From Neocallimastix lanati (nom. inval.) (Eukaryota > Neocallimastigomycota > Neocallimastigomycetes > Neocallimastigales > Neocallimastigaceae), in NCBI GenBank assembly GCA_016946835.1, contig JACVTC010000187.1, forward strand, positions 52,501-107,500: a stretch of 55,000 bases of DNA, in the 5' to 3' direction. Below are positions 5,094 through 30,016 of the stretch, piece by piece. The notes under the pieces were generated by a model. That model was not told the origin of the DNA, made no database searches, and saw only the letters and a program-made list of their open reading frames with translations. Position 1 is the first letter of the stretch. The number at the start of each line of letters is the position of its first letter. A program made the translations under genes and the position numbers.

Positions 5094-6891
5094 ATGAATG
5101 ATAATAGCAATAAAGAGATAAATAATTATAATGATAATGAAGATGAGAAAATAAATTATTATAATGATAATGAAGAATTCAAAAATAATGATTATAATAA
5201 AAATGTTGATGATAAAATAAATATTTATAATGAAAATAGTGATGATAAAATAAATATTTACAATGAAAATAGTGATGATAAAATAAACATTTACAATGAA
5301 AATAGTGATGATAAAATAAACATTTACAATGAAAATAGTGATTATATGATTAACAATTATAATCAAGTTGATGATTATCATTACAACGATAAAGAATATA
5401 TAAATGATGATAGTAATAATACAGAAAATGATGAACTATTTAACTATAGCAAAAATAAAATAAATGATGATATAGATAAAAAAAATAAAAAGTTTCATAA
5501 AAAAACATATAAAGATTATCAATCCAATAAAACAATTAATATACTTTTAAAGCAATCGGATGATATAAAAAAAGAGTATAAGCAAAGTATTTTTAATGAT
5601 GTAATAAATGGCCCACATGGTCCTGATGTACGTCTACATAAACATAATATTGTGGTAGGCTTATTGAAATTATTTATTGTTCTTTTTTTTACTGCTGGTA
5701 TAATACTGTTATCAGTGATTTCACTTTGTATTACAATTAATGTTGGTTATGTTTGTGTTCAAATTGACGACACAAATTCAATGATTCAAATGATATTTTT
5801 TGTTTTTTATTTTAATGTACTGTATTCAATTATATATTCTTTTTGGAAAACTTATTTAAGATTAGTTCATACAATAAGTAAATCGAAATTTGGGTCTTCC
5901 ATGAATGATATATTTATTAAAAGAGTTCTTGGTTACTTTATCACCTTAAAAATTACAAAATTGGTAATACCCAAAAAATATAAGAGTCATCCCAAAGATT
6001 GGTATGAAAAATTAAATTTAATAATATTTAGTGTTTTTTTATTTATTATTTTACTTCCCTTTCCTATTGTTGCCTATATTTATGGCTATTGGGAAGTTGT
6101 CAGTATGTTTTGTATTTTTTTCGTCATTGGAGGAGCTCTATCAATTATTGCAATAAATGGATTTTCGCGCATAATTCAATTTATTAAACTTTTCAGTCGA
6201 CTGAACGAATTCTATTATAATGCACCATATTATGTTAATTTAGATGAACGGGCAAAAAATCAAACCAATTTTCTTAGATTAGCTTATTGTACTACTAATG
6301 GTTTACATGGTGGTTGTAATCTTCTAAATCACATATTAAATCAATTAATTATTATTTGTACACAAATTTCTTTGGCAGCAATCTTTTTTGGATCGTTTGA
6401 TCCTGACGTTATTAAGATGTCTATTTCTTTAGGATTACTTATAATTATTTTGCCACTTCGTTTTAGAAAAGAAATCTATAAAACCTTTCTTAATATAGGT
6501 GTTAATTTGCATCTTTTTTCTAAAAATACATTGAAAACGGATGAATTAGAAGATAAAACTAAAATTAATGCTAAAATGAAAGCTACCCATAGACAATATT
6601 TAAATAATATAAAAAATACAATTTTTATTAATAATAAAAAAAGATATATTAATTCAGGTGGAAATAGTTTCAATTATAATACAATGGATTTAAATGGAAG
6701 TTCTGAAAAATCCGAAGAATATCATAGCAATATTATTTCAAATCAAATTGAAAATAATAATGTCGGTAAAGATAATAAAATTGATAATGATACTAATAGC
6801 AATTATTATGAAGATATTAAGAATACTAATTTCGACGGTAGTAATAGCAATAATAATGTTGATGAGAATAAAAATAATAATAATAATGAAT

Positions 6892-6973
<82 letters not shown>

Positions 6974-7856
6974 AATTCCTATCTATATAAATCAGAAGGA
7001 TAATATTCAGAATCAAGAAAATAATCTTAATATTAATGATGAACGTTTAGAATCTGCTCAATTTTTTAATGAAGAAGAAAATAAAATTAACTTAAGTTTC
7101 TATAATTTAATAAATTCAAAAAATCCTTATTTTCATGGAAAAGCACTTAAAAAATGGAATATTGATACTCTTACATCTTGGAAAGGTTGTTTAACCATTT
7201 TCTCTTTAAGAATTATTAAATTTGTAGTGGGTATTACTTTTATGGCTATTTTAAACTATTATCGTTATTCAGAATATTTAGATACAGAAGAAACTAATCA
7301 TAATCTTCAAAATGACATCATCACCCATATAATATTTGTTATTGTTTTATTGCTACAAGATATTATATTTTTAATTCCAGCAAGTACAGAAATTATGTCA
7401 ATGAAAACAAGAAAGTATTCTTTAAATATTCTTTTAATAATGGAATTTATTCTTGTAATTGTTATGAGAGCTATTATCATCAATAATTATATTCCTATGG
7501 CTTTTATATTAATTGCATATGCCAATTTTACTGTTCATCCTGATCCTCGATATAATTGGGATGATGAAGATACCGAACGGAAAACATTATTTGATCTTTT
7601 TAATCCAAAATTTGATTTTGATCCTGAAACTACACGTAAGCATTATAAAAAAAAAAGAAGATTTTCCAGAAAATATAAAATAAGATTTTCAAATATATAT
7701 CGTAAACTTTCAAAAGATAATAGAAAGGAAAAGAAAGGGAAAAAAATCATTAGAAATAATAGTAATACTAGTAATAATGAAAATAGTAGCAGTACTAACA
7801 ATAATAGTATTACTATTAATGATAATAACTATAGTAGAAATTTGTCAGATTCATAT

Positions 7857-7928
<72 letters not shown>

Positions 7929-9053
7929 CTTTTTAGAGAAACATCCAATTACAAATTAAATACACAAAAAAGTAATAGTAAAGGAAATATGAAATCAAGA
8001 GAGAAACTATATAGAGTGGTTAAAGGTATAAGAAAGGAAATGCAGTATAAACGTAATACACGTGCCTATCATAATAGTACTATTATTTTATTAGCAATTT
8101 CTTTTACTGTAATTATTTCACTTGTAATAAGTATTAAGTTCTCTGAAAGTGGTAGAAAAACTATTTATACTGTTAAGGATTTCCTAGATGATAAAAATGA
8201 AGTAACAAATCAAAAACCCGCAATTTGTCAATGGCGTGCTGATGGTATTTCAATTAATGAATTTTGTGCATTGGCTTATGCTTGCTATTATAAAAATATT
8301 GAAAACGTTAATAATTCTTGGCTATTTAGTCGACCAAAATCTTCTAAAAATAATTTTATTGTTGGAGATAATAACGTTACTTCTAAGACTGGGGTTCATT
8401 ATGTTGATTTTATAAATAAAGAAAGTAATATTTTAGTAGTTGCAATTAGAGGAACATTGACAATGGAAGACATATTTCAAGATTGTTATATATGGAGTGC
8501 TTCTGGATTACTTCAAATCTCTGGATATTTTGGGACATTTATTACTTTTTGGCCTAGAGAAATAACTGCAACATTGGTAAATCTTATTGTTAAACAATTT
8601 ACTAATTTTCAACTATTATATTGGGTAGATGTTGAAAAGCACATTAAAGAATTACAAATGAATACAAATTATACTCTTTATCTTACAGGACATTCATTAG
8701 GAGGAGGTGTGGCAGCTGTTATTGCATCACATTTAAATATTCCTGCTATTACATTTTCCTCTCCTGGTTTAGGATATTCCTATAAAACATATGATATTGA
8801 ATTAAAAAAATTAATGAGAAATCTTGTGAATGTAATTCCTATGTCTGATCCAATACCAAAATTAGATTCCCAGGTTGGAGAAATTCAATATATAGAATGT
8901 AAGACAGGACATCCATTTGCTTGTCATCGTATTATGAATACTCTAGATACTTTAAATAATTTATGTCATGAAGATGCAGTTTATCGTTATTGGGATGAAC
9001 ATACAGAAAAAACGATAGATGGAGTTCCTGTTAAACATAATCTTTATCCATAG
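5094..9053 (+). CDS. Multi-pass membrane class 3 lipase, diacylglycerol-lipase-like (1319 aa)
   Basis: A predicted lipid-ester hydrolase anchored in a membrane. The C-terminal ~280 residues form a lipase class 3 fold: the strand LVVAIRGTLTMEDI, the nucleophile elbow TGHSLGGG (Ser1201), a probable acid in MSDPIPK (Asp1252) and a candidate His1278 in FACHRI; the His choice is the least certain. Before it lie about ten hydrophobic segments in two groups (about 187-460 and 697-812), plus one near 991-1013 just ahead of the lipase domain. The N-terminal ~180 residues are Asn/Asp rich and hold four near-identical 11-residue repeats (DDKINIYNENS type) coded at about 5209-5340. Two poly-Asn runs (about 600-624 and 921-944) are AAT microsatellites kept in frame. 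Membrane segments plus lipase_3 recall sn-1 diacylglycerol lipases, but the membrane part is much longer, so the substrate is inferred only. Confidence 0.88.
5209..5340 (+). repeat. In-frame 33-bp tandem repeat in the lipase gene
   Basis: Four nearly identical 33-bp units encode an Asn/Asp-rich 11-residue repeat in the predicted cytosolic N-terminus. The copies differ by only a few bases, so the expansion looks recent. Confidence 0.85.
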
Positions 9054-10812: not shown

Positions 10813-12011
10813 TTATAAATATTTTAGTTCTGTTAATTTTAACCATGTAATTAAGATATATGCTCTACCAAAATTTTTTTTAATCTCTTCTTCAATATTT
10901 TCATTTATAAATTCAACATTTGAGATAATAGGAGACCAATCTAATTTTTTTATATTTTCCATAGTATACTGTTGATCTGGTATATAATTTAATCTTCCTT
11001 TGGATAATAATGTAATATACCATGCATAATTTGTTCTATAAAATAATAATTTGTCTGAAAAATTGCAATAAAAGAGTGATTTTTTTAATATTTTTAAGTC
11101 CTCAAGTTTTTTCTTTCGTTCATTCTCATTTTCTATATTTTCTATATCTTTTCTTAACATATCTACATCACTTGAAGATAATCTTTTACATAATCCATAT
11201 TCATTTAACTTTTTTTTTTGAAATGTATTTAATTTTAGTGTTGATGATTTAGCTCTTTCTATTCCATAAATATTTTTATTATAATATAATATTTTTATTG
11301 CAAAATCAATTTCACTAAATTTAACAGCTACATTTACATATACATCTTTTTTATCTTTGTTTTTCACAGTTCTGGATGATTTATGAATTCCAACTACTTC
11401 ATATTTTGTATTTAAAAGAGGAGAGCCAGATGATCCTCGATCTGTCGATATTTCATGATAATAATCAAAACTATGAATATCTTTAATATTTCCAAAGGCT
11501 ACAGAATATTGGGTTTTAGGGTATTGAAAGATTATAATAGGTTCATTAATTATAGCATCTTTACTACTTGGCTTAAGGAATACTGGTTCAATTTCATTAA
11601 TGTATTTTATACTTAATTCAACAAACGTAATATCGATTAACTCCGATGTAAAAACAAAATCTTCATCATTTATTTGAATTTCTATACCCTGTTCCTGGTT
11701 ATTGGCCATAAAAATTTTAAATGATTCACCCAACTTTAGCTGAGTTTCATTTAATACGTGATTATTTGTCATTATGCCACGCATTGGATTCTCTTTTGAT
11801 GGAACTGGAATTTCAATAAAAAAACCAGTTCCATAATTTTTATTAGCTTTTATTAAACAAAGAGAATTATTTATTTCATTATATAAATTATTGAAAAGTT
11901 TTAGATTATTGTCTGAAAAGTATTTTTGATCACTATTGGAGGAATACTTTTCATCTTCACTTTTTTAATAATTATTTAATAATATTATTAAATGTATTAT
12001 CATAATATGAA

Positions 12012-12046
<35 letters not shown>

Positions 12047-15000
12047 ATATATAAATAAACAGATAATAATAAATGAAATACTATTTAATATATATAGAAA
12101 TAGTTATCTAAATTATTATTATATTATTAATTTTTAATAAAATTGAATATATTAAAATAAATTAAGTCATGAATAAAAAAATATATATATATATATCATA
12201 ACAGAATAAAAATATACCTATCTGAATTATTATTATCTCGTATAGTGCCTTTTTTTTTTTAAGATATACAAATATATTTATTTTAAATTAGAATATAATA
12301 TATTAATTAGTTTAAAAAATTTAAGTATTCAAAAAAAAAAAAAAAAAAAAAAAAAAATTAAATTAATAATACCTTTTAAGATATTAAGCATTTTATTATT
12401 TTCGAATTTTTCTGCAATATCTAATGGAGTAAGTCCATAAGAATTTAATGATGTTGAAAATTTTTCAATCGTATCTGAAAATAATTGTATAGTTTCTATA
12501 TTATTTAAATAACATGCAATATGTAATGGCAAATTGTTTTTATTATCGACTATTTTAGCTGATGCATTATGCTGAATGAGATAATTTACTATATCTGAAT
12601 TTTTAAAATAACATGATACTATTAATGGACTTAGACCATATTTAGATTTCTTGTTTATTTTAATTTCTTTATGTTTTAATAAGAGTTTCACTAATTTTTT
12701 ATTTTCATTTTTACATGCAATTATTAATGGTGTGTCACCATATTCATTTCTTTCATTTATATTCTCCCCACTGGTAATTAATCTTTCTACTTCATCAGTA
12801 TTTCCTTTTTTACATTGATACGTTAATTTAGTATCATAATAATTTCCTTTTTTTTCTATTTTCTTTCTTGCTATTCTATTATTAACCTCTTTAAACATTC
12901 TTGAGAGTTTACTATTTTCATTAAATGTTATTTCGCTATTATTTTTTTCTTTATATTTATTTAATTTTTCAAATTTATAAAATAAATTTTCAAATTTATG
13001 ATTAATTTCTAAAGTATCTTTTGAATGGTTATTAATATTTAAAATTAATTTTTCAATATCTCTTTCAGTGATATCTAATTTAATCTCCTTGTTTTTTGCA
13101 TAATTTATTAATAATTTAAATAATTCTAAATTATCATTATCCATTGCTTTAAATATCGGGAAACTTTCATCATTATTTCTTTCATTAATTTCTAAAATTT
13201 TATCATTTTTATTGGAGTAATCTATTAATAAATTAACTATTTTAGCATTGTTGTTATCGATGGCTTTTAAAAGTGGATAATTTCCTTTTTTATCTTTTTC
13301 ATTTATTTCTAATATTATTTTATTTTCATTTGCATAGTCTATTAATAATTCCATTATTTCAATATTATTATTGGAGATGGCATATGAAAATGGATTCCAT
13401 CCATCATTATCTTTTTCATTTATTTTTACAATAGATTTTTTTTCTCTGGCGTAATCTATTAATAATTTGGACATTTCAATATTATTATTTGAAATAGCAT
13501 ATAAAAATGGATATTTTCCATTAACATTACTTTCATTTATTTCCAAAACAATTTTATTGTCATTGGCATAATCTATTAATAATTTAATTATTTCAATATT
13601 ATTACTTTCAGTAGAATATAATAATGGATAATTCCCATCTTTATTTTTCTCCTTTACGTCTAAAAGTATATCTTTTTTATTGGCATAATCTATTAATAAT
13701 TTAATTATTTCAATATTATTATTTGAAATAGCATACAATAATGGATAATTTCCATCATTATTTTTCTTCTTTACTTCTAAAAGTATTTCATTTTTGTGGG
13801 CATAATCCATTAATAAATTAATTATATCAATATTATTATTGGAAATAGCATTTAATAAAGGATAATTCTCATTCTTATCTACAACTTTTATTTCCAATAT
13901 TATTTTATTTTTATTGACATAATCTATTAACAGTTTAATTATTTCAAAGTTATTATTTAATGTGGCACATAAAAGTGGATTGTTTCCATCATCATCACCT
14001 CTTTCATTTATTTTCATAATGATATTATTTTTATCAACATAATTTATTAATAATTCTGTCATATCAAAGTTATCATTAGCAATGGCTTCAAAAAAGGGAT
14101 ATCTTCCAATATCATCATTTTTATTGATATCCAAAATTATTTCATTTTTATTGGCGTAATTTATCAATTGCTTTGCTATTTCAATATTATTATTTAAAGT
14201 AGCATATAAAAGTGGATTTCTTCCAACACTATCAAATTCATTGATTTCCAAAACTATTTCATTTTTATTAGCATAGTCTATTAATTGCTTTACTATTTCA
14301 ATATTATTATTTGAAGAAGCATATAAAAGTGGATATTTTCCAACATCATCATTTTCATTGATATCCAAAATTAATTCATTTTTATTAGCATAATCTATTA
14401 ACTGCTTTATCAATTCAATATTATTTCTTTTAGTAGCATATAAAAGTAGACTACGTACTTGTTTATCTATCAAAATTACTATTTTATCTTTATTTGCACA
14501 ATCAATTAAAAAATTTAGCATTTCAATATTATTATGATTAATTATGCTTAAAAGTGGGAACAACTGAAATTTATGTCTTTCATCTAATTCTAAAATTATT
14601 TTATTTTTAACAGCATAGTCAATTAACAATTTTACAATTTCCATGTTATCATAATAAATTGCAACTAAGAGTGGATAGCGTCCAGTTTCAGATTTTTCTT
14701 TTAGTTCTAAAATTATATTATTTTTAAGGGCATAATTTATTAATAATTTTATGATTTCAGTATTATTATTATAAAGAGCAATTAAGAGTGGAGATAATCC
14801 ATTTTTATCTTTTTCATTTAATTCCAAAATTATTTTATTCTTTATGGCATAATCAATTAATAATTTGACTACTTCAATATTGTTTTTTAAAATGAGATAA
14901 AATAATAGATTTTTTCCATTTTTATTTTTTTCGTTGACTTCCATAATTATTTTTTTTTCATTAACATAATCTATTAATAATTTAATGATATCTATATTAT

Positions 15001-18000
15001 CATTAACAATGGCATACAAAATAGGATTATTTTCATTTTCATCTTTTTCATTTATTTTCATAAATATTTCATTTTTAATGGCATAATTTATTAATAGTTT
15101 AGTAATTTTAATATTATTATTTTTAATTGAAGTTAAAAGTGGATAATTTCCATTATTATCTTTTTCATTCACTTCTAATAAAAATTTATTTCTATTGGCA
15201 TATTCCATTAATAATATAATTATACTAATGTTTTCTTTTTTAACAGAATATAAAAGAGGATAATTTCCTTCATTATAATCTTTATCATTTACTTCTAAAA
15301 TTATTTTATTGTTATTGGCATAATCCATTATTAAATTTATCAATTCAATATTATTATAATAAACAGCCATTAAAAGTGGATAGTTTCCAGTGTTATTTTT
15401 TTCTTTTACTTCTAATAATATTTCATTATTAATGGCATAATCTATTAATATTTTAATTATTTCAATGTTATAATTTGAAATTGCAGTTAAAAGTGGATAA
15501 TTTCCATAATTGTCCTTTTCATTTATTTCCAAAATAATTTTATTTTCATTGGCATAATCTATTAAGGATTTAAGTATATCATTGTTATTGTTTTCAATAG
15601 CTGCTAAAAGTGGATACGATCCATTTTTATTTTTTTTGTTTATTTCTAAAACTATTTTATTTTTTTCGGCGTAATCTTTTAATAACTTTATTAATTCAAT
15701 ATCATTATTTTCAATGGCACATAAAAGTGGATACCATCCTTCAGTATTACTTTCATTTATATTAAAAATTATATCATTTTTATTGGCATAGTATATTAAT
15801 AATTTAATTGTTTCAATGTTATAATTTAAAAATGCATTTAAAAATGGGTAATTTCCATTATCATCTTTCTCATCAAATTTCAAGTTAATATTGCTTGTAC
15901 AGGCATAATCTATCAATAATTTAGCTATTTTAATTTTATTTTTTTCGATGGCTAATAAAAGTGGATATTTTCCACCCTCATTTTTTCCTTTTATTTCTAA
16001 AATCACATTATTTTTACTGGCATAATCTAATAATAATTTAATTATATCAATATTATTATTTGAAATGGCATATATAAGTGGATTATTTTCTTTATTGTCT
16101 TTATCATTTAATTCTAAAATTATTTTATTTTTATTAGCGTAATCTATTAATAAATTAATAATTTCAATATTATTAGATTTAATTGCAAGTAAAAGTGGAT
16201 AACATCCAGAAACATTTTTTTCATTTATTTTTAAAACTATACTATTTTTATTTGCATAATTTATTAGCAATTCAATTAGTTCAATATTATCATTATCAAC
16301 GGCATACAAAAGTGGATACGATCCATTTTTATTATTTTTTTCGTTTATTTTCAAAATTATATTATTTTTATTAGCATAATCTATTAATAAATTAGCCATT
16401 TCAATATTTTCATATAAAAAGATTCTTAAGAGTGGATATAATTCATTATTATTTTTTTCGTTTACTTCCAAGATAATATTCTTTTTATTAGCATATGTTA
16501 TTAGTAATTTAACTATTTCTATATTATTCTGGATAACAGCACATAAAAGTGGATACAAACCATTGTTATTTTTTTTATTTATATCCAAAATTATGCCATT
16601 CTTATTAGCGTAATTTATTAGTAGCTTAACTATTTTAATTTTATTTTTATCAATAGCATATAAAAATGGAAACCATCCATTAGTATTTTTCTCATTTACT
16701 TCCAAAATTATATTATTTTTATTAGCATAATCTATCAATAAATTTATTATTTCAACATTATCATTAATAATAGCTTCAAAAAGAGGATATTTTCCAACAT
16801 TATCATATTCATTTACTTCCAAAATTATCTCATTGTCATTGGCATAATCAATTAATAATTTAACTAATTCAATATTATTATTTGAAATAGCGTATGAAAG
16901 TGGATTATTTCTATCATCATCTTTTTCGTTTATTTCTAATCTTATATTATTATTGATGGCATAATCCTTTAATAAATTTGCTAATTTAATATCATTATGG
17001 TAATATGCCATTAAAAGTGGATATTTTCCATTTATACATTTTTCTTTAATTTCTAAAATTATTTTATTTCTTTTTGCATATTCTATCAATAATTCTATTA
17101 TTTTAAGATTATTTCGATAAAAAGCAATCAATAATGGATATAATTTAAACTTATTTTGTTCATTTATTCCCAAAACTATTTTATTTTCATTTGCGTAATC
17201 TATTAATAATTTAATCATTTCAATATTATCAATCGCAGAAGCAAGTAAAATTGTATTATTTTTAGAATTATCTTGTTCGTTTATTTTTAAAATTATTTCT
17301 TCTTCATTAGCATAATCTATTAAAAATTTAGTCATTTCAATATTATCATTTTCAACAGATTTTAAAAGTGGATAACTTTTGTTATCGTCTTGTTCATTTA
17401 TTTCTAAAATAATATTATTTTCATGAGCATAATTTATCAATAATTTAACTATTTCAGCATTATCATTTTCAACAGATTTTAATAGTGGATAACTTTTGTT
17501 ATTGTCTTGTTCATTTATTTCTAAAATAATATTATTTTCATGAGCATAATTTATTAATAATATAACCATATCAATATTATCATTTTCAACAGATTTTAAT
17601 AGTGGATAACTTTTGTTATTGTCTTGTTCATTTATTTCTAAAATAATATTATTTTCATGAGCATAATTTATTAATAATATAACCATATCAATATTATCAT
17701 TTTCAACCGATTTTAAAAGTGGATAACTTTTGCTATCGTTTTTTTCATTTATTTCTAAAATAATATTATTTTCATGAGCATAATTTATCAATAATTTAAC
17801 TATTTCAGCATTATCATTTTCAACAGATTTTAATAGTGGATAACTTTTGTTATCGTCTTGTTCATTTATTTCTAAAATAATATTATTTTCATGAGCATAA
17901 TTTATCAATAATTTAACTATTTCAGCATTATCATTTTCAATAGATTTTAAAAGTGGATAACTTTTATTATCGTCTTTTTCATTTATTTCTAAAATAATAT

Positions 18001-18340
18001 TATTTTCATTGGCATAATTTATCAATAATTTAACTATTTCAGCATTATCATTTTCAATAGATTTTAAAAGAGGATAATTTTTATTATTATCTTTTTCATT
18101 TATTTCTAAAATAATATTATTTTCATGGGCATAATTTATCAATAATTTAACTATTTCAGCATTATCATTTTCAATAGATTTTAAAAGTGGATAACTTTTA
18201 TTATCGTCTTTTTCATTTAAATTCAAAAAAATCTTATTTTGATTTGAATATTCTATTATATTTTCTAACTTTTTAATATCTCCTATTTTAATTACATTTA
18301 GAAGATTTTCATCACTAGGGTTATTATTTTCATTATTCAT
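10813..18340 (-). CDS. Ankyrin-array protein fused to a trypsin-like serine peptidase (3 exons, ~2381 aa)
   Basis: Predicted exons, 5' to 3' on the minus strand: 18340-12373, 12248-12218 and 11959-10813. Both introns (12372-12249 and 12217-11960) start GTAT and end AAG. Phases agree at each junction and the spliced length is 7146 nt, a whole number of codons. Without splicing, the ankyrin frame runs into a T-tract and the peptidase frame lacks its N-terminal strand GTGFFIEIPVP. Residues ~42-1755 hold about 44 repeats of ~39 residues (core YPLLxAIxNNNIEIIKLLI), then a basic linker, then about four canonical 33-residue ankyrin repeats. The peptidase domain shows TNNHVL (His2067), LIDITFVEL (Asp2109) and GSSGSP (Ser2177), so all three triad residues are present. 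After it come a charged coiled-coil stretch and a C-terminal segment I do not recognise. No signal peptide is seen, so an intracellular role is likely. Activity and targets are unknown. The fusion rests on intron inference. Confidence 0.82.
17280..18217 (-). repeat. Near-identical 117-bp units of the ankyrin array
   Basis: Repeats 1-8 of the array are almost identical, both as protein (units built on SYPLLKSVENDNAEIVKLL) and as DNA with a 117-bp period. Later repeats have diverged widely. This points to recent amplification or homogenisation at the N-terminal end. Confidence 0.85.
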
Positions 18341-19437: not shown

Positions 19438-20003
19438 GCATATTTATTTTATTTTATTTTATTTTATTTTATTTCGATTGATACTTGCAATTTATTATAA
19501 TTCACATATTTATTTTATTTTATTAGTACTTGTATTTTTATTATAATTCAAATATTTATTTTGTTTTATTTTATTTTATTTTTATTAATACTTGTATTTT
19601 TATTATAATTCAAATAATTTTTTTATTTTATTTTATTTTATTTTATTTTATTTTATTTTATTTTATTTTATTTTATTTTTATTAATACTTTATTCCTTTA
19701 TATTACTTCACTATTTATTTTATTTTATTTTATTTTATTTTATTTTATTTTATTTTATTTTATTTTATTTTATTTTATTTTATTTTATTTTATTTTATTT
19801 TATTTTATTTTATTTTATTTTATTTTATTTTATTTTATTTTATTTTATTTTATTTTATTTTATTTTATTTTATTTTATTTTATTTTATTTTATTTTATTT
19901 TATTTTATTTTATTTTATTTTATTTTATTTTATTTTATTTTATTTTATTTTATTTTATTTTATTTTATTTTATTTTATTTTATTTTATTTTATTTTATTT
20001 TAT
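19438..20003 (+). repeat. (TTTTA)n microsatellite
   Basis: A pentamer array, interrupted up to about 19715 and then nearly perfect to 20003. Because five is prime to three and the unit lacks stops, it creates a long open frame of alternating F/I/L/Y residues that is not a gene. Confidence 0.95.
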
Positions 20004-20876
20004 TCAATCTGTACTTCATATTTATATTTCAACTATTTATTTTATTTTATTCATTCTGTATTTCATATTTATATTTCAACTATTTATTTTATTTTATTCA
20101 ATCTGTACTTCATATTTATATTTCAACTATTTATTTTATTTTATTCATTCTGTATTTCATATTTATATTTCAACTATTTATTTTATTTTATTCAATCTGT
20201 ACTTTATATTTATATTTCAACTATTTATTTTATTTTATTCATTCTGTACTTCATATTTATATTTCAACTATTTATTTTATTCAATCTGTACTTTATATTT
20301 ATATTTCAACTATTTATTTTATTTTATTCAATCTGTACTTTATATTTATATTTCAACTATTTATTTTATTTTATTCATTCTGTACTTCATATTTATATTT
20401 CAACTATTTATTTTATTCAATCTGTACTTTATATTTATATTTCAACTATTTATTTTATTTTATTCATCCTGTACTTTATATTTATATTTCAACTATTTAT
20501 TTTATTTTATTCATTCTGTACTTCATATTTATATTTCAACTATTTATTTTATTTTATTCAATCTGTACTTCATATTTATATTTCAACTATTTATTTTATT
20601 TTATTCATTCTGTACTTCATATTTATATTTCAACTATTTATATTATTTTTATTTTATTTTATTTTATTTTATTTTATTTTATTCAATCTGTACTTCATAT
20701 TTTTATTTCAACTATTTATTTTATTTTATTCAATCTGTACTTTATATTTATATTTCAACTATTAATTTTATTTTATTCATCCTGTACTTCATATTTATAT
20801 TTCAACTATTTATTTTATTTTATTCAATCTGTACTTTATATTTATATTTCAACTATTTATTTTATTTTATTTTATT
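20004..20876 (+). repeat. 47-bp minisatellite, about 18 copies
   Basis: Each unit starts TTCAATCTGTACTTCATATT, goes on to TTTATATTTCAACTATTTA and ends in TTTTA pentamers. Units differ by CAATC/CATTC/CATCC and by one pentamer (42 versus 47 bp). Two more copies of the unit lie near 47536 and 47636. The array is directly joined to the pentamer satellite, from which its tail appears to derive. It is open in one frame but not protein-like. Confidence 0.95.
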
Positions 20877-21073
20877 TTATATACTTATACTTCTATATTA
20901 TTACATTCTATATTTTTTTCATTTTATTTTTAAATATTCTTTTTAAAATTCTTATTTCCTTTTTAATATTTTTTTTATCTAATATTTTAAATAAATTTTA
21001 TATAATACGAAAATCTTTTTTACTCAGGAGCATTATATTTAACTTGATAAGGAAAGATTATTTGAAAATTTAA

Positions 21074-28242: not shown

Positions 28243-30016
28243 ATGAAGTTTTCCTTTATTGCAGGACTTTTAGCTTTAGCTAATCTCGCTTTATCAGCAG
28301 AAACTTGTGGAAAAGCATATTATCAATGTGGAGGGTAAAATATTTAATTAATATTTTTTTTTTCAATAGAAAAAAATTACTTAATATTAATTATAGTAAT
28401 AATATAATAATAATATAACCAATAATAATAAATATTTGTTCATATAACTTTAAAATTATGTTAATGATAAATATTTTTATAGAAAAAATTTTAAAGGAAG
28501 TACATGTTGTATTACTGGATACACTTGTAAAACAATAAATGAAAATTTTTCACAATGTGTTGAAGCATCAAGTAGCAATAATAGTAATACTGTTGCTCCA
28601 AGTAATTCAGCTTCTAGTAATGCTACTCCAAGTAATCTTATTCGTAATAATATGTTTTGGAAAGATACCTCAGGAAAGAATATTTATTCCCAAGGTGGTG
28701 GTGTCTTTAAATTTGGTGTTAAATATTATTGGTATGGTGTTCACTATCAAGGGGCAGAAACTTATGCTAATGCACCAAGAAAAAGAAATAGCGATACTAG
28801 ATTTGTTTCAGTAACTTGTTATTCTTCAACAGACTTAATTAATTGGAAATTTGAAAATGATATTCTTACTCCAAAAACAAGAAACTTTGGCGATCCTGCT
28901 TGGTTTGGTAGACTTGGTGTTGCTTACAATAAAAGAAGTCGTAGATATGTACTTGTTGCTCAACACAATGATGGTATTATGTTTGCTTCATGTGATACAC
29001 CAGCTGGTAATTATAAGGTTGAACATATTCAAAATCAAATTACCAATGTAATCAACTTAGGTACGGGAGATCAAACCGTTTTTGTAGATGATGATGGATT
29101 AGCCTATTTAATTTGTTCTAATAAGAAAGGTCGTAATCATCAATATGTTTCAAAACTTCGTGAATCTGATTTCCTCTATGCTGAACCTGCAAAAGAAGTT
29201 GCTAAAGGATATGGCCGTGAAGGTGATGCTCTTTTCAAATATAAAGGTAAATATTACTTCTGTGCCTCAGATCTCCATGGTTGGAATGCTTCCCATAGTT
29301 ATTATATGGTTTCTAATAGTATTTGGGGACCATACTCTGCTTGGAAGGTTATGGATGGAACAGATATGGATTTCTCATTTGTCACCCAAACAGGTTTCTT
29401 CTTTACTATTAAAGGAACAAAACAAGAGACGGTTGTTTTCTGTGGTGACCGTTGGAGTGATTTCGCTGGAAACGGTTTAGGTTATAATCAATGGGTACCT
29501 CTTACTGTAAATGGTGACAATGTTAAGTTTAATTCTCTTAGTGAATGGAGTATTAATGCCGAAACTGGTGAATGGTCCGTTGGTAATGGTAATAACTACT
29601 GTCTTAACCCATCTTTCGAAGCTGATAGAGTAGCCCAAACAGCTCTTGCTGGATGGAAGACTTGGGGTGTTGGTGCTAAGAATAAGAGTGGTGGATATAC
29701 AGGTAATTGGTGCGCTGAACTTTGGTCTGATAAAGATTACGATGGTTCATATTATCAAAGAATAAATATTCCAAATGGTACCTATAATTTAAAAGCTTGG
29801 GCAAAGAGTTCAGGTGGACAAAAAATTGCTAATATCTATGTTAAGAATTTCGGTGGAAATGAATTAAATGTCGATCTTAGTAAAAAGATGAATAATTGGA
29901 CCCAAGTTTCAATTAACAATATTAAGGTTACCAATGGAATGATAGAAATTGGTATATATAGTAGTGCCTATGCTGGAAACTTTGTTAATGTTGATGATAT
30001 AGTTCTTTCTCATTAA
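28243..30016 (+). CDS. Secreted CBM1-GH43 glycosidase, probable exo-beta-1,3-galactanase type (541 aa)
   Basis: Two exons, 28243-28334 and 28483-30016. The 148-nt intron starts GTAAAA and ends TATAG; spliced length is 542 codons with the stop. Residues 1-19 are a signal peptide (MKFSFIAGLLALANLALSA). Residues ~21-57 are a CBM1 cellulose-binding module (YYQCGGKNFKGSTCC followed by ITGYTCKT, ending FSQCVE). A Ser/Asn/Ala linker follows to about 84. The GH43 domain (about 85-395) resembles the exo-beta-1,3-galactanase subfamily: WKDTSGKNIYSQGGGV near the start and GREGDALF, whose Glu277 is the likely catalytic acid. The last ~140 residues form a second carbohydrate-binding-like beta-sandwich (NPSFEADR to NVDDIVLSH). 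It probably trims arabinogalactan-type side chains outside the cell. The subfamily is recognised from memory, not from a search. Confidence 0.9.

Follow-up and report, generated by a model that had tools for sequence, protein, structure and literature searches.

Two open reading frames follow one another on the minus strand of a stretch of the genome of the anaerobic gut fungus Neocallimastix lanati, one encoding a giant ankyrin array and the other a trypsin-like peptidase. The stretch analysed, hereafter the window, comprises 55,000 nucleotides (nt) of contig JACVTC010000187.1 (positions 52,501 to 107,500; assembly GCA_016946835.1). The locus raises the question of whether these frames form one gene and, if so, what a protease placed directly behind such an array might do. 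To judge from the reading frames, the array and the protease are one gene and a single reading unit, and the layout recurs in a large family of this genome. We tentatively read the product as a cytosolic receptor-protease, possibly a sensor in defence or cell death, and put the probability of this reading at about 0.4. The features of the gene, in window positions, are as follows.

12373-18340, minus strand: exon 1, with the start codon, the 39-residue ankyrin array, a spacer and a canonical ankyrin block (Ank_2, 1.1e-187)
13098-18258, minus strand: tandem array of a 117-nt (39-residue) unit in about 44 copies (Tandem Repeats Finder: period 117, 44.1 copies, 74% matches)
12386-12853 (approximate), minus strand: canonical ankyrin repeats just before the protease (Pfam, PADLOC and weak matches to the profile of the array's own repeat)
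12249-12372, minus strand: intron 1, 124 nt, GTATTA...AAAAG, phase 1 donor
12218-12248, minus strand: micro-exon of 31 nt, encoding GTIRDNNNSD and a split Ser
11960-12217, minus strand: intron 2, 258 nt, GTATAT...AAAAG, phase 2 acceptor
10813-11959, minus strand: exon 3, with a linker, the trypsin-like peptidase, a C-terminal block and the stop
11329-11865, minus strand: V8-like (Trypsin_2) peptidase core with His2067, Asp2109 and Ser2177 (Trypsin_2, 5.9e-11)
10816-11061, minus strand: conserved C-terminal block, LLFYRTNYAWYxT ... ILITWLKLTELxYL, residues ~2300-2381 of the protein

A sequence-only reading of this DNA had joined the two frames through introns 1 and 2, and the rebuilt gene agrees with it: three exons separated by two GT-AG introns give a coding sequence of 7,146 nt, or 2,382 codons including the stop, which encodes 2,381 residues and has a single terminal stop. 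Profile searches of the exons likewise recovered the domain content that it had described, with ankyrin repeats in exon 1 and Trypsin_2 in exon 3. Donors of the same phase as that of intron 1 stand at the equivalent place in paralogues. The micro-exon was evaluated in 13 compact linkers (gap below about 700 nt) by searching for exons of 19-61 nt which are preceded by AG and followed by GT, have a frame-keeping length of 1 mod 3, end in AG and are open in phase; 400 dinucleotide shuffles per linker served as the null. Such an exon is present in 9 of the 13 linkers (the window and eight of the 12 paralogues), against an expectation of 0.14 of 13 from the shuffles. One of precisely 31 nt is possible in five of the 13 (0.015 expected), one of 49 nt in three and one of 28 nt in one, while the other two length classes give candidates in two of 13 (L019 and L024); four linkers (L009, L010, L018 and L028) yielded no candidate in the compact-linker search. 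The length phase is itself no finding, because the search fixed the length class, and the exact exon bounds in the paralogues are not fixed, since four loci permit more than one nested start.

Two neighbouring genes instead of one would find support in the two frames seen in the genomic sequence and in the upstream in-frame methionine that precedes the core in 15 of the 24 family protease exons. In the other nine, however, no methionine precedes the core, and in exon 3 of the window none lies ahead of the first conserved protease strand, GTGFF. The first methionine there comes 16 residues later, and therefore a stand-alone start at 11784 would truncate the core. Moreover, the paralogue L032 carries array and protease in a single open frame of 2,500 codons without any intron, and L030 retains an in-frame remnant from which the earlier part of the protease is missing. 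L032 and L030 may themselves be decayed copies, since L032 is devoid of the C-terminal block and the protease of L030 is partial. On the strength of this uninterrupted fusion, the in-frame remnant, the recurring micro-exon and the missing methionine we reject two separate genes as extremely improbable. Two frames at such a locus may conceal one giant fused protein.

The ankyrin-protease layout is not unique to the window gene. In the genome assembly (199 Mb, 762 contigs), a search with the exon 3 protein returned 66 pieces merging into about 55 loci, 11 of which lie on contig C379 and six on C88. The Trypsin_2 profile matched 43 places, all of which overlap exon 3 family matches, so that the search showed Trypsin_2 proteins of this family only. 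The loci read were 24: the window, L032 and the 22 stretches L009-L030, each about 10 kb long. Together they cover 25 of the 43 Trypsin_2 places. In 22 of the 24 the protease is preceded on its own strand by ankyrin frames, with one match (L019) being weak (E 0.00056, under the threshold in a stricter scan); the exceptions are L011, which has no ankyrin frame, and L029, which is masked by Ns. No ankyrin match on the opposite strand was found in the 24 loci read. L009 and L010, which share 95.5% identity across 7.98 kb and 96.2% across 1.34 kb and differ in linker length, are evidently alleles or a recent duplication. Approached from the array side, a search with the best 150 of 2,784 candidates scored gave 213 matches, and those of them that are listed comprise 48 distinct array frames. 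Twenty of these are followed by a family protease match in the same orientation and at most 11 kb away; one of those matches contains stops. Among the listed array frames of at least 1,500 residues the fraction with a downstream family protease is 11 of 17. A separate locus, L035 (C599:475000-478900), is an 852-residue frame rich in Ser/Asp repeats in which only the Ser-containing piece of the protease occurs, as a captured fragment.

The sequence-only reading had assigned His2067, Asp2109 and Ser2177 as the catalytic triad, and the joined protein has them at these positions, in the contexts TNNHV, LIDIT and GSSGSP. In Pfam, exon 3 scores 43.7 bits with Trypsin_2 (clan PA; cut-off 27.6) and 28 bits with Trypsin (cut-off 20.6). 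The triad is invariant in 12 aligned copies; in a wider set that excludes L033, every copy scored has the Ser (24 of 24) and the His (23 of 23), and all but one have the Asp (23 of 24). The best solved-structure match of the family profile is the staphylococcal V8 protease (1qy6, 2.3e-9), on whose chain positions Thr164 and His184 the residues Thr172 and His192 of exon 3 align. A pattern that includes the catalytic Ser finds these two together in 24 of 25 copies, and the 25th, L033, has both of them when inspected by eye. In V8 the Thr and His at these positions presumably act in Glu recognition, and a preference for cleavage after Glu is accordingly predicted for the family from its pocket residues. 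A free N-terminus likewise contributes in V8; as the exon 3 core follows the array, linker cleavage or another pocket must take its place. That catalytic and pocket residues are retained speaks for a genuine and apparently active enzyme family. Across the protease core the ratio of nonsynonymous to synonymous substitution rates (dN/dS) lies at 0.25-0.49 for nine of the 14 pairs listed as closest, these values being rough because pairs share members and dS reaches 0.85.

A linker rich in serine and acidic residues holds the core, and the C-terminal block, which the earlier reading had not mentioned, comes after it. The block (exon 3 residues ~300-381) has invariant columns at F306, R308, T309, N310 and W313 and no Pfam match. 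In HtrA the corresponding position is taken by the PDZ domain. PHROGs gave one match, to a family of unknown function (1.2e-4), and NCBIfam gave none; pattern scans for exon 3, which reach close relatives only, found no relatives in viral contigs or genome contigs. An AlphaFold2 model of exon 3 alone is not usable (predicted local distance difference score, pLDDT, 33.9).

The count of about 48 ankyrin repeats in the sequence-only reading also holds: a profile built from the array's own repeat gives 48 matches, 45 of the 39-residue type and three weak ones that fall in the C-terminal block of canonical ankyrin repeats. The best Pfam stretches of that block span residues 1839-1942, and the PADLOC ankyrin model spans 1839-1981. 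PADLOC further matches exon 1 to PDC-M72A (3.7e-74), which is plain ankyrin similarity. Modelled with AlphaFold2, the final 520 residues of exon 1 form an ankyrin solenoid (pLDDT 80.7; predicted template modelling score 0.58). Its matches in the PDB are designed ankyrin repeat proteins and human ankyrins and, lower down (ranks 44, 49 and 50), the RNase L sensor; the likeness lies in the repeats and not in the overall curve, since the root-mean-square deviation is high over the full length.

How, then, would recognition by such an array be coupled to the protease? The sequence-only reading had observed that a NACHT or NB-ARC switch is absent, and Pfam indeed finds neither in exons 1 and 3. In a six-frame, exon-by-exon search of the genome both gave 0 matches; in 14 prokaryote genomes used as controls the NACHT and NB-ARC profiles had matches in 11 and 6 respectively, over the cut-off in three each. 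We accordingly reject an identity as a NOD-like receptor (NLR). The further statement that fungal receptors normally join array and effector through such a switch was too strong, as direct repeat-protease sensors are in print: passages of PMC12881547 describe sensors beside fungal gasdermins in which protease domains are often directly fused to WD40, TPR or ankyrin repeats, NLRs making up only a small subset. A 2014 survey detected no NLR immune receptors in chytrids (PMC4986451). Genome searches for gasdermin and for HET gave no match, and the control of each was silent as well.

These results are consistent with the following proposal. The giant solenoid would bind a protein or peptide ligand, and binding would gather protease domains or lift a restraint imposed by the linker or the C-terminal block. 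The V8-like domain could then cleave a nearby target, which may be the captured protein itself or an executioner acting further downstream, for example a pore-former. The protein is presumably cytosolic, as inspection by eye shows no obvious signal peptide at the N-terminus of the window protein or of L032; the ligand, the activation and any defence role we infer, and a role in defence or allorecognition is possible. We favour a sensor because protease-repeat fusions in fungi have been described, in the passages of PMC12881547 noted, as controlling gasdermins, because NLRs were found neither in chytrids in the survey of PMC4986451 nor in this genome, and because the family has many members, which are clustered and in part decaying. 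It is conceivable that the family takes over the sensing work done elsewhere by NLRs. The wider proposition, that gut fungi possess a switch-free form of innate sensing in which dozens of ankyrin arrays with a V8-like protease recognise intruders and trigger defence or death, strikes us as rather unlikely on present evidence. Were it true, a short linker exon would wire each giant array to its V8-like protease. The family is a concrete candidate for intruder sensing in early-diverging fungi: its genes are numerous, the architecture recurs, the protease seems active and has a predicted cleavage preference, and one copy is a natural pseudo-enzyme.

A number of observations weigh against a receptor-protease with a sensing role. 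Among the listed array frames, 28 of 48 have no recognised protease, one of these (C88:178k) running into a stretch of Ns. In L036 (C741:689000-694400) what comes after the giant 39-residue array is a stretch of canonical ankyrin repeats containing a Gln-Ser tract, and no enzyme; the array of L037 simply ends, and that of L034 runs into Ns. We looked for a different enzyme on three of the 28 protease-less arrays (L034, L036 and L037) and saw none, and with such arrays in existence the array is evidently also used without a protease. Within the enzyme family, Glu replaces the catalytic Asp in L029, the oxyanion turn is damaged in the first copy of L020, and L033 (C379:637500-638700), an intact frame of 356 residues downstream of a 2,898-residue array, has Asp changed to Gly and the catalytic Ser to Ala; having lost both residues, L033 is a pseudo-enzyme. 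Five of the 14 closest pairs, each between copies on C379, have a dN/dS of 0.60-1.06, indicating weak constraint. Selection on the repeats was assessed in the 43 nearest near-identical within-gene pairs, which come from 7 of the 18 loci with ungapped units, and pN/pS is 0.64, giving no sign of positive selection; diversifying selection in the repeats is thus unsupported. Replacements do cluster: 22 of the 43 pairs have one at position 21, and positions such as 14, 31 and 32 also collect them. They avoid the structural Leu, Tyr and Pro positions, but relaxed surface constraint gives the same pattern, which is therefore not evidence of diversifying selection. Of the window's 10 other frames of at least 200 residues, seven were scanned with Pfam, and no partner or executioner was recognised in them. 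Finally, PMC9815663 mentions reports of TIR-bearing NLRs from Chytridiomycota, by which the absence of NLRs from chytrids is disputed.

Several of these points would sit as well with a close rival, a housekeeping protease whose array is a fixed scaffold recruiting cellular proteins, such as cytoskeleton, cell-wall or secretion machinery, for regulated cleavage without any non-self recognition. The constrained majority of close protease pairs and the repeat pN/pS below 1 agree with it, as do the giant arrays that occur without an enzyme and an ankyrin expansion without known role noted for Neocallimastigomycota in part of PMC8778642. Some 55 clustered loci with fragments and stop-bearing copies, however, fit a fast-turnover family better, and we consider this explanation possible but doubtful. 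The same decay could instead reflect mostly neutral amplification, in which long A+T-rich repeat genes duplicate and decay easily and few copies are functional. Stops within the match in 11 of the 55 loci, the loss of catalytic residues in the intact frame of L033, the mere protease fragments of L030 and L035 and the weak constraint among the C379 copies all point that way. Against this stand the retention of the triad and of the pocket residues at the frequencies given above and the recurrence of the splice architecture, which make it quite unlikely as the explanation of the family.

The nearest solved proteases are bacterial enzymes known to be secreted, which might suggest a secreted or delivered weapon against rumen microbes with the array binding the target cells. 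Long ankyrin arrays are usually cytosolic, though, and the two protein starts inspected show no obvious signal peptide; we regard such a weapon as very unlikely. The receptor-protease reading is the one that we retain.

Among known systems, the fungal gasdermin-controlling sensors, as portrayed in passages of PMC12881547, are alike in placing a protease directly on superstructure-forming repeats with no need for NACHT, and the fusion of a protease to ankyrin repeats is, as a principle, already in print there. The proteases named there are of the S8 or CHAT type and lie beside a gasdermin gene, whereas the present one is of the V8-like S1 type and follows a giant 39-residue ankyrin array, close to the C-terminus; no gasdermin was recognised in the window frames scanned, and exon 3 has no S8 or CHAT match in Pfam at E up to 1. 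Fungal NLRs, of the STAND class, with ankyrin repeats also combine a repeat array with an enzyme in large families, but in the portions of PMC4986451 and PMC9815663 concerned their effector is N-terminal, whereas here it follows the repeats without NACHT or NB-ARC. Bacterial trypsin-containing conflict systems, in the parts of PMC7159879 and PMC8195603 that deal with them, and RT-Protease_XI share a trypsin-like domain in defence-associated proteins. RT-Protease_XI is the best PADLOC match of the protease (1.5e-9), covering only model positions 317-496 of 506; a reverse transcriptase, EAD, vWA or STAND module was not recognised here, Pfam finding no reverse-transcriptase family in exons 1 or 3.

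The staphylococcal V8 and Spl proteases (S1B) resemble the window enzyme in the chymotrypsin-type triad, the GxSGSP motif and the pocket Thr and His. They are single-domain secreted enzymes, whereas the window enzyme is fused behind ankyrin repeats and has a conserved C-terminal block. HtrA/DegP proteins also carry a Trypsin_2 domain, but here an ankyrin array is found instead of PDZ, and we reject an HtrA/DegP identity as exons 1 and 3 gave no PDZ match in Pfam at E up to 1. RNase L, whose sensor fold is matched by the exon 1 model, likewise couples an ankyrin sensor to an effector enzyme with no STAND switch; its repeats number about nine, it has one kinase-like domain and one RNase domain, and its ligand is 2-5A. 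In titles, abstract openings and a few passages we found no description of a V8-like S1 protease on a giant 39-residue array or of the gut-fungus family. The parts of PMC8106346 and PMC8778642 concerned describe no ankyrin-protease fusion, the latter listing S01 peptidases as extracellular nutrition enzymes.

Beyond these relatives, CBM_10 modules are very numerous in the genome (150 of 150 scored among 1,440 candidates), as is typical of anaerobic gut fungi. In the window itself, a long open frame of low-complexity repeats (ILFYF...) at 19592-21073 is probably no gene. The plus strand carries a 914-residue frame at 142-2886 with a weak Ank_5 match near its end (23.8 bits, cut-off 27) and otherwise no family, and a glycosyl hydrolase family 43 frame at 28652-30016. 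A 1,319-residue frame at 5094-9053, also on the plus strand, has a class 3 lipase domain and hydrophobic stretches and lies tail-to-tail with the ankyrin-protease gene.

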